DNA from: Aliiroseovarius sediminilitoris
GTDB lineage: Bacteria > Pseudomonadota > Alphaproteobacteria > Rhodobacterales > Rhodobacteraceae
DNA: 64,000 nt
NCBI RefSeq assembly: GCF_900109955.1
Contig: NZ_FOJB01000001.1
Location: forward strand, 1,364,001 to 1,428,000
Reading direction: 5' to 3'
The translations under genes and the position numbers were made by a program. Below are positions 36,433 through 38,296 of this stretch, in pieces. The stretch's first letter is position 1; every line of letters starts with the position of its first letter. The notes below the pieces were generated by a model that searched no databases, had not been told where the DNA came from, and was given only the letters and a program-made list of their open reading frames with translations.

Positions 36433-37728
36433 ATGCTGCAGGATAAAGACCGGATCTTTACCAACCTTTATGGCATGCACGACCGCACCCTTGCGGGCGC
36501 AAAGCAGCGCGGCCATTGGGATGGCACCGCCGGGATCCTCAAGAAGGGTCGGGACTGGATCATCGAGCAGATGAAAGCCTCGGGCCTGCGTGGTCGCGGC
36601 GGGGCGGGGTTCCCGACCGGTCTGAAATGGTCTTTCATGCCGAAGGAAAGTGACGGTCGCCCGGCCTATCTGGTGATCAATGCGGACGAATCCGAGCCCG
36701 GCACCTGCAAAGACCGCGAGATCATGCGCCACGATCCGCATACACTGATCGAGGGCGCGCTGATCGCCTCTTTCGCGATGAACGCAAACACCTGCTACAT
36801 CTATCTGCGCGGCGAATATATCCGCGAGCGCGAGGCGTTGCAGGCCGCGATTGACGAGTGTTATGACGCGGGCCTGTTGGGCAAGAATGCGGCCAAGTCC
36901 GGTTGGGATTTCGACCTGTTCCTGCATCACGGGGCGGGTGCCTATATCTGTGGCGAAGAAACCGCGCTTCTGGAAAGCCTTGAGGGCAAGAAGGGCATGC
37001 CGCGCATGAAGCCGCCATTTCCGGCGGGTGCCGGACTGTATGGCTGTCCGACCACGGTGAACAACGTGGAATCGATTGCCGTTGTGCCGACCATCCTGCG
37101 GCGCGGGCCGGAATGGTTTGCGGGCTTTGGCCGCCCCAACAACTCCGGCACCAAGCTGTTTGGCATCTCGGGTCACGTGAACAACCCCTGCGTGGTTGAA
37201 GAGGCAATGTCGATTTCCTTCGAGGAACTGATCGACAAACATTGCGGCGGTATTCGCGGCGGCTGGGACAACCTGAAAGCCGTGATCCCCGGTGGCTCGT
37301 CTGTGCCCTGCGTGCGCGGTGAGAACATGCGCGACGCGATCATGGATTTCGACTATCTGCGCGGCGAGCTTGGCTCGGGTCTGGGCACCGCGGCCGTGAT
37401 CGTCATGGACAAGCAGACCGACATCATCAAGGCGATCTGGCGCCTGTCCAAGTTCTACAAGCACGAAAGCTGCGGCCAGTGCACGCCGTGCCGCGAAGGC
37501 ACCGGCTGGATGATGCGCGTGATGGACCGTCTGATGCGCGGCGAAGCCGAAGTGGACGAGATTGACATGCTGTGGGATGTGACCAAACAGGTCGAAGGCC
37601 ACACGATCTGTGCGCTTGGCGATGCGGCCGCATGGCCGATCCAAGGTCTGATCCGCAACTTCCGGGACGAGATCGAAGACCGCATTCGTGTAAACAAGCA
37701 AGGCAAAGCCAGCATCGCGGCGGAATGA
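36433..37728 (+). CDS. nuoF: NADH-quinone oxidoreductase subunit F
   Basis: The 51-kDa subunit that binds FMN and NADH and holds cluster N3 (431 residues). It shows [17 protein letters not shown] for nucleotide binding, [15 protein letters not shown], and the cluster ligands [12 protein letters not shown] plus the Cys in [10 protein letters not shown]. It starts 6 bases after the DUF5337-like gene. The stop TGA overlaps the ATG of a mini-ORF that spans the following spacer. Confidence 0.97.
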
Positions 37729-37877
37729 GCCGACGCGCAATTGAAATGAAAGACACGATGATGAATATGCAACGCAACATACTGAAAACTGGCGCCTCTG
37801 CGTCCGTTTCTGCGTGTTGTTATTGCATGACAACATTGTGCATCCCCACCTCCTTTTCAACAAAAGGAGATTTGTGA
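37725..37877 (+). CDS. Possible 50-codon Cys-containing leader ORF between nuoF and the DUF5333 gene
   Basis: The ATG overlaps the nuoF stop (ATGA) and the TGA overlaps the ATG of the next gene (TGATG), so ribosomes could pass through without a gap. The peptide has a Cys cluster [10 protein letters not shown] at residues 30-39, encoded at 37812-37841. The last third of the ORF contains a hairpin that hides the ribosome site of the next gene. No homologue is known to me, and its own ribosome site is poor, so it would rely on coupling to nuoF. Confidence 0.4.
37850..37869 (+). promoter_or_regulatory. Hairpin sequestering the DUF5333 Shine-Dalgarno sequence
   Basis: CTCCTTTT-CAAC-AAAAGGAG is a perfect 8-base stem with a 4-base loop. 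Its right arm is the whole ribosome-binding site of the gene starting at 37877 (7-base spacing). In the mRNA this would block initiation unless a ribosome translating the overlapping mini-ORF melts it. Confidence 0.55.
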
Positions 37878-38296
37878 TGATGAAACTTCGTACTTTTGCT
37901 TTCGCCACGGCCATGGCGGCAACCGCCGCCACCGGTGCGGCCTCGTCCGTGGATTATGCGGCATTGCGGGACGACAGCCGGATGCATGAAGAACTTTTGG
38001 GCGCTTCGATCGCCTATTTGATCGACGAGAACTGCCCGACCATTCGGCTGCGGAAATTCCGACTTTTGAACAAGGCGTTTTCGCTGCGCAAACATGCCAT
38101 GACGCTTGGCTATTCCTCGAAAGAGGTGCTGGCCTATGTGGAAAGCAAGGCCGAACAAGACCGTTTTCGCGCAATCGCCGAGCCGATGCTGGCCAAGCGT
38201 GGCGTAAAGCCGGGTGATGAAGAAAGCTACTGCGCGGTTGGACGGGCAGAGATCAAACAGGGCTCCTTTGCTGGATCGTTACTTTACGAAAGCTAG
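37877..38296 (+). CDS. DUF5333-like secreted protein in the nuo operon
   Basis: A 139-residue protein with a signal peptide ([22 protein letters not shown]). The mature domain has two cysteines (ENCPTIRL and [11 protein letters not shown]) that probably form a disulfide in the periplasm, with charged helices between. It matches, from memory, DUF5333, a Rhodobacterales family found between nuoF and nuoG. The ATG at 37877 has AAAGGAG 7 bases upstream, within a hairpin. Function unknown; a periplasmic protein in a complex I operon suggests a role in assembly or quality control, which is speculative. Confidence 0.82.

Follow-up and report, generated by a model that had tools for sequence, protein, structure and literature searches.

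The window analysed here is a stretch of 64,000 nucleotides from the 3.41-Mb genome of Aliiroseovarius sediminilitoris (genome G000). It carries a gene that we take to be nuoF, a name taken over from the preliminary description of this DNA, and behind it a gene for a DUF5333 protein (Table 1). The spacer between the two genes is filled by a frame of 50 codons, which starts at ATG 37725 in an ATGA shared with the nuoF stop (nuoF ends at 37728) and stops at 37875-37877 in a TGATG shared with the DUF5333 ATG at 37877. The preliminary description had read this frame as a leader and had inferred that its cluster of Cys codons would sense cysteine supply through a hairpin that masks the Shine-Dalgarno (SD) sequence of DUF5333. 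The frame, the Cys cluster and the hairpin were all recovered at the positions given for them, the hairpin pairing CTCCTTTT (37850-37857) with AAAAGGAG (37862-37869) over 8 bp, 100% complementary, around a loop of 4 nt. The description had missed that the Cys codons themselves lie in another inverted repeat (37815-37823/37827-37835). Also, a second uncharacterised gene of the complex I operon, the small DUF5337 gene (PF17272, 36190-36426), lies directly before nuoF.

Table 1. Features of the spacer between nuoF and DUF5333 and of its flanking genes, with the basis of each assignment.
Feature	Position	Strand	Basis
nuoF (assumed name), gene upstream in the operon	36433..37728	+	ORF list; relatives of nuoF precede DUF5333 in genus loci
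Spacer-filling ORF, 50 codons	37725..37877	+	Frame open in 19/19 distinct genus sequences
Inverted repeat across the "Cys codons"	37815..37835	+	Arms 37815-37823/37827-37835, 89% complementary
15-bp palindromic element, window copy TGTTATTGCATGACA	37818..37832	+	Family consensus TGHTATTGMATADCA
Predicted -35 hexamer TTGCAT	37823..37828	+	Inference from constant spacing relative to the -10 and to the ATG of leaderless genes
Putative -10, CCCACCT (CCCATCT in the family), which overlaps the anti-SD arm	37845..37851	+	Inference
Putative start site of transcription within the loop of the hairpin, at about 37859	37857..37861	+	By analogy with leaderless genes that carry this element
SD-masking hairpin, predicted to be whole only in read-through mRNA	37850..37869	+	Inverted repeat, folding, stem comparison
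Shine-Dalgarno AAGGAG of DUF5333	37864..37869	+	Sequence
DUF5333 gene (PF17267), exported-looking protein	37877..38296	+	ORF list, Pfam; export signal by eye
Element form for a DNA bait, TGTTATTGCATAACA			

DUF5333 was detected in 28 of 61 genomes (the window's own and its relatives) and in 293 of 394 Rhodobacteraceae genomes, nearly one per genus. We compared 138 DUF5333 loci, namely the window, 19 members of its genus, 8 loci from the 61-genome set and 110 further family loci; these 110 of the 118 non-genus loci are the best-scoring further family matches (30 loci and 80 short regions) and not a random draw. The genus set covers 19 of the 20 other members, the twentieth, 56% complete, having given no DUF5333 match. 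Start codons of DUF5333 were picked by a script, and export signals and leaderless starts were judged by eye or by script rather than with a dedicated predictor. At two genus loci (L008 and L017), an extra small gene for an exported- or lipoprotein-looking product lies between nuoF and the spacer element.

Within the genus, the frame was open in all 19 distinct sequences, with stops in frame +1 in 18 of them and in frame +2 in 6, and its stop lay in an ATGA or TGATG with the DUF5333 start at 19 of the 20 loci. The start within the nuoF stop held in the window (ATGA), as had been described, but in the genus at 2 of 20 loci only, the window and L009 (GTGA); the remaining loci had in-frame starts further downstream. 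The sequence CYC was kept at all 20 loci, and the first and last Cys of the cluster originally described vary. Changes creating a stop were fewer on the genus tree than expected (2 against 6.8 ± 2.5), and the openness of the frame may be mildly favoured. We saw no selection on the amino acids of the spacer peptide, the outcome of the dN/dS comparison that had been suggested for it: pN/pS was 0.79 in the frame against 1.06 and 0.69 in the shifted frames (13 genus pairs), and the 76 synonymous changes counted on the genus tree outside the core gave no excess over a null of 71 ± 7.

The Cys codons fared differently in other genera. A stop codon fell within the CYC triplet (codons TGH TAT TGM) at 38 of 94 loci, and the second Cys was replaced by Trp at 6 of the 94, so that the Cys codons, kept in the genus as predicted, are not the conserved feature. 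ORFs bridging the spacer in any frame were present at 29 of these 94 loci, against 16.2 ± 3.2 expected from a null that shuffles the coding sequence of the upstream gene and is therefore rough, and absent from 65. In the frame of the Cys codons, 19 loci had such an ORF (14 with CYC, 3 with CYW and 2 with a different first residue).

The codons TGT TAT TGC ATG sit in a 15-bp palindrome, TGHTATTGMATADCA, of which the window block reads TGT TAT TGC ATG ACA. The window differs from the family palindrome at one of the 15 positions (G for A, 37829), and this G is common to the genus loci. The core TATTG[N][A/C]T[A/G] was found no more than 140 nt upstream of the chosen DUF5333 start at 114 of the 138 loci (20 in the genus and 94 in other genera); from base frequencies alone, we estimate about one match per 100 such stretches. 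Over 95 loci (the window and the 94 of other genera) the profile is T-G-H-TATTG-M-A-T-A-D-C-A, in which the search itself imposed TATTG and T(+7); it placed no condition on G(-2) and C(+10), and these were found at 95/95 and 94/95 loci. The 24 loci without a core upstream of the script-chosen start include some at which the DUF5333 start falls within the preceding gene or at its end, as well as at least one miss of start choice, L024, with the core just after the chosen start. By eye, a further string, CATATC, is seen repeatedly a short way past the upstream gene's stop codon at many non-genus loci, and is present also at the palindrome-lacking loci L055, L058, L064 and L065.

The palindrome is not confined to DUF5333. 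The exact pattern TGHTATTGMATADCA gave 51 sites in 43 of 120 Rhodobacteraceae genomes, against 1 for the reversed control, the window's own site with its G for A lying outside these 51. A class-wide set of 142 genomes, 140 from outside the family, yielded 9 sites in 8 genomes (control 0), and the combination with the -10 part described below yielded 34 sites in 32 of 394 family genomes (control 0). Sixteen of the 51 sites adjoin known DUF5333 matches, and when the other 35 were fetched, 3 more turned out to be DUF5333. Among the 32 that remained, 25 precede an exported-looking protein (export signal or lipobox by eye; at L147 the start is 139 nt away) and 7 do not fit (L152, L156, L158, L169, L171, L177, L180). 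The proteins behind these sites comprise small proteins of a CYADYK type, lipoproteins, an OmpA/glycine-zipper protein (PF00691) and cytochromes c, one of which passes PF00034 while another has no Pfam match.

The CYADYK-type genes provide a ruler. Their ATG lies 25-26 nt after the element at 11 of 12 family loci (56 nt at the twelfth) and 25 nt after it at all 8 loci in the genus, one of them in the window's genome, and some element sites leave no room for a leader peptide before the gene. In the window's genome, the element (L029, G000:C1:228329-228341, minus strand) stands 25 nt before the ATG of an exported-looking protein of 95 aa, GCYADYKAKQDDPLRLHYGV, which has no Pfam match; the arrangement is repeated at 7 further genus loci. 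A 13-bp core matched in 21 of 21 genus genomes. The 30 core loci examined there included 8 CYADYK-type genes, 9 DUF5333 genes, 1 other secreted protein and 11 loci that do not fit (10 without a fitting gene, and L030 without an assigned gene), which means that chance core sites exist.

In many loci the palindrome is followed in fixed register by CCCATnT. The string CCCA occurs at +24 from the element at 33 of 95 loci, against 0-4 at each of 12 shifted registers, and is absent from that position at 62. The window has CCCACCT (37845-37851) at offset +24, a variant of CCCATCT and not the commonest form; with its element and a -10 in register, it has both sequence parts of the bipartite class TGHTATTGMATADCA / CCCATnT, a class defined here. 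CCCATnT differs greatly from TATAAT. A pattern containing CCCAYCT, allowed one mismatch in 21 genomes, returned DUF5333 sites and a recurrent match that by eye reads as coding sequence.

Because the CYADYK-type genes have no room for an SD and keep a constant distance to their ATG, their mRNA would be leaderless, which would place TTGMAT at -36 to -31, with a box such as CATGGT following after another 17 nt. By analogy, the same ruler puts the DUF5333 start site at about 37859 (offset about +38). We thus regard it as likely that this spacer serves the nuo operon as an internal promoter, with the palindrome over the -35, CCCACCT as the -10 and a start near 37859. What looks like a cysteine leader between nuoF and DUF5333 is more likely a hidden promoter, of a type found repeatedly in this family ahead of genes whose products are exported, beside a hairpin that can hide an SD, and the Cys codons would be a by-product of its -35 element.

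The masking of the SD, also part of the preliminary description, was supported by folding. Positions 37834-37889 (56 nt) have a folding energy of -13.8 kcal/mol with a z of -2.67, a value that 4 of 200 shuffled sequences matched, and the SD was closed at 17 of the 20 genus loci: in read-through RNA its probability of being unpaired was 0.00-0.04 at 16 loci and 0.21 at L020, against 0.71-0.92 at the three unmasked loci (L005, L006, L010). In RNA starting at the predicted promoter, it was 0.53-1.00 at all 20. Over 90 loci, read-through RNA had a mean of 0.311, against 0.445 with the sequence ahead of the SD shuffled (p 4e-9), and promoter-born RNA had a mean of 0.591. The SD begins at least 5 nt after the predicted start at 90/90 loci with an SD found, a weak check given that the search for the SD was limited to a distance of 18 nt from the ATG. 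Over the 19 genus sequences, 91.4% of the stem cells are paired. Compensatory change was found at its closing pair (UA in 7, GC in 5, CG in 2, unpaired in 5), the only one of the eight pairs to change on both sides. At L091, L100, L101, L102 and L121, a long hairpin (e.g., CGTTCTGG...CCAGAACG) stands directly before the DUF5333 SD, near the place of the -10, and its arms covary by eye.

With an internal promoter, two mRNAs would differ in their access to ribosomes. Transcription from the promoter would begin in the hairpin loop, at about 37859, and the mRNA, beginning just before the SD, would lack the anti-SD arm and be translated freely. In the read-through mRNA from nuoF, the -10 sequence would be part of that arm and the SD would be folded shut. 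The output of DUF5333 would then be set mainly by the internal promoter, and the mask may owe its origin to the -10 box forming part of the anti-SD arm. In certain phage T4 genes, too, translation depends on the promoter that made the mRNA: early read-through transcripts hide the ribosome site, which is accessible in late transcripts born at a promoter. In contrast to them, the -10 region itself would here supply part of the masking arm.

The palindrome has a further property within the operon. Its outer arms, beyond the palindrome, are complementary at positions 4 and 5 at 59 and 60 of the 95 DUF5333 loci (null 41 and 43), without excess at position 6; at 41 element sites before other genes, the counts were at chance level (13 and 16 against 15.4 and 16.0). 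Such pairing is more than a simple promoter would call for. The shuffle nulls of this analysis ignore the relatedness of the loci. Since the outer arms pair at DUF5333 and not at the other sites, the element within the operon seems to be kept as an RNA hairpin too. As a possible extension, one sequence may do three jobs: it may be the -35 palindrome of a candidate regulator of exported proteins in Rhodobacteraceae, a -10 box with a second role in the anti-SD arm, and a hairpin selected only at this intra-operon promoter. The origin of the mRNA would then decide the translation of DUF5333, and complex I would be tied to a regulon that includes cytochrome c.

These observations have to be weighed against other readings of the spacer. 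In a cysteine-responsive translational attenuator, ribosomes that stall at the Cys codons under cysteine shortage would fail to open the hairpin over the SD. Both the hairpin and the cluster of Cys codons are real, CYC is kept throughout the genus, and 14 of the 19 same-frame bridging ORFs in other loci retain it, but the stops and Trp codons in the triplet outside the genus, the lack of a synonymous excess and the presence of the same bases before unrelated genes that have no leader make cysteine sensing highly improbable. A purely RNA motif was our first idea and was dropped, as the same bases stand at a fixed distance from leaderless start codons. In its fuller form, in which there is no promoter and the two hairpins serve a binding protein or are the target of an RNase, this reading would account for the pairing of the outer arms of the first hairpin at DUF5333 loci and for the UA, GC and CG closing pairs of the SD stem. 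It is nevertheless quite improbable, given the same bases 25-26 nt before the start codons of other genes, the chance-level pairing of the outer arms at the 41 other sites and the register of CCCA. Rfam had no match in the window at the gathering threshold, the two hits near the site having E above 1.

Coupling by ribosomes without any sensing may coexist with the promoter: ribosomes leaving nuoF would open the hairpin as they translate the spacer ORF, and would then start anew at DUF5333. The open frame of the genus, its stop overlapping the DUF5333 start, the deficit of stop-creating changes and the excess of bridging ORFs speak for it, while a pN/pS that does not stand out from the shifted frames, the 65 loci without a bridging ORF and the roughness of the null count against it; we see it as possible, on the unlikely side. 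The promoter could also belong to the RpoH class (RpoHI/RpoHII) rather than serve a separate DNA-binding regulator, which we think unlikely. RpoHI/RpoHII promoters of R. sphaeroides have TTG at -36 to -34 and a CAT-like -10 with a conserved A-12, and both factors act at cycA P1, which has G at -36 (PMC3441632). The sites described here share the TTG and have a similar -10; cytochrome c genes are likewise among the element sites. However, the passages on these promoters describe little -35 information beyond TTG and make no mention of a palindrome (PMC3441632), whereas here about ten nearly fixed palindrome bases extend over the -35 and the targets are mostly small and exported-looking. By eye, the CAT at DUF5333 is one base further than at RpoH promoters, while several leaderless sites have the usual spacing.

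Several other known systems were compared with the site. A sigma54 site was rejected by eye, as the spacing is wrong, and so was a Zur-like box, whose centre differs from the Zur consensus. CenR and NtrX are R. sphaeroides regulators of genes for envelope or exported proteins; the CenR regulon motif is TGA-N8-TGA (PMC9275681) and NtrX sites are GCA-N9-TGC (PMC7240162), and neither matches TGHTATTGMATADCA. The CutF/cutO system of Rhodobacter capsulatus (PMC9973294) resembles the spacer in having a small upstream ORF with Cys codons and a stem-loop that shields the next SD. CutF binds Cu, is exported, contains CxxxC and ends in a proline-rich stretch (PMC9973294). In contrast, the spacer peptide has by eye no Sec export signal, CxxxC or proline-rich stalling end, and other genera do not keep its Cys codons as codons. 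A copper-sensing nascent peptide of the CutF kind was therefore rejected.

No mention of DUF5333 was found in the literature searched, and among papers matching the element strings none was on Rhodobacterales, judged by title. The element was not named in titles or abstract openings among the top literature matches listed, and prior publication is possible.

The same promoter type stands before small exported proteins, lipoproteins and cytochromes c in Rhodobacteraceae, and one regulator or sigma factor thus probably links these sites; by eye, no regulator gene behind its own element site was noticed among the fetched loci. One short motif makes a candidate regulon testable across many Rhodobacteraceae genera. 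If the promoter reading is true, an uncharacterised gene of the complex I operon would be linked with cytochromes c and small exported proteins. Our data also call for caution with "leader peptides" rich in special codons, which can be promoter elements read in frame. In two genera (L246 and L186), the element also stands before a secreted-looking protein with the sequence CPPGLAKKTPxCVPPG; one of the two was tested and had no Pfam match.
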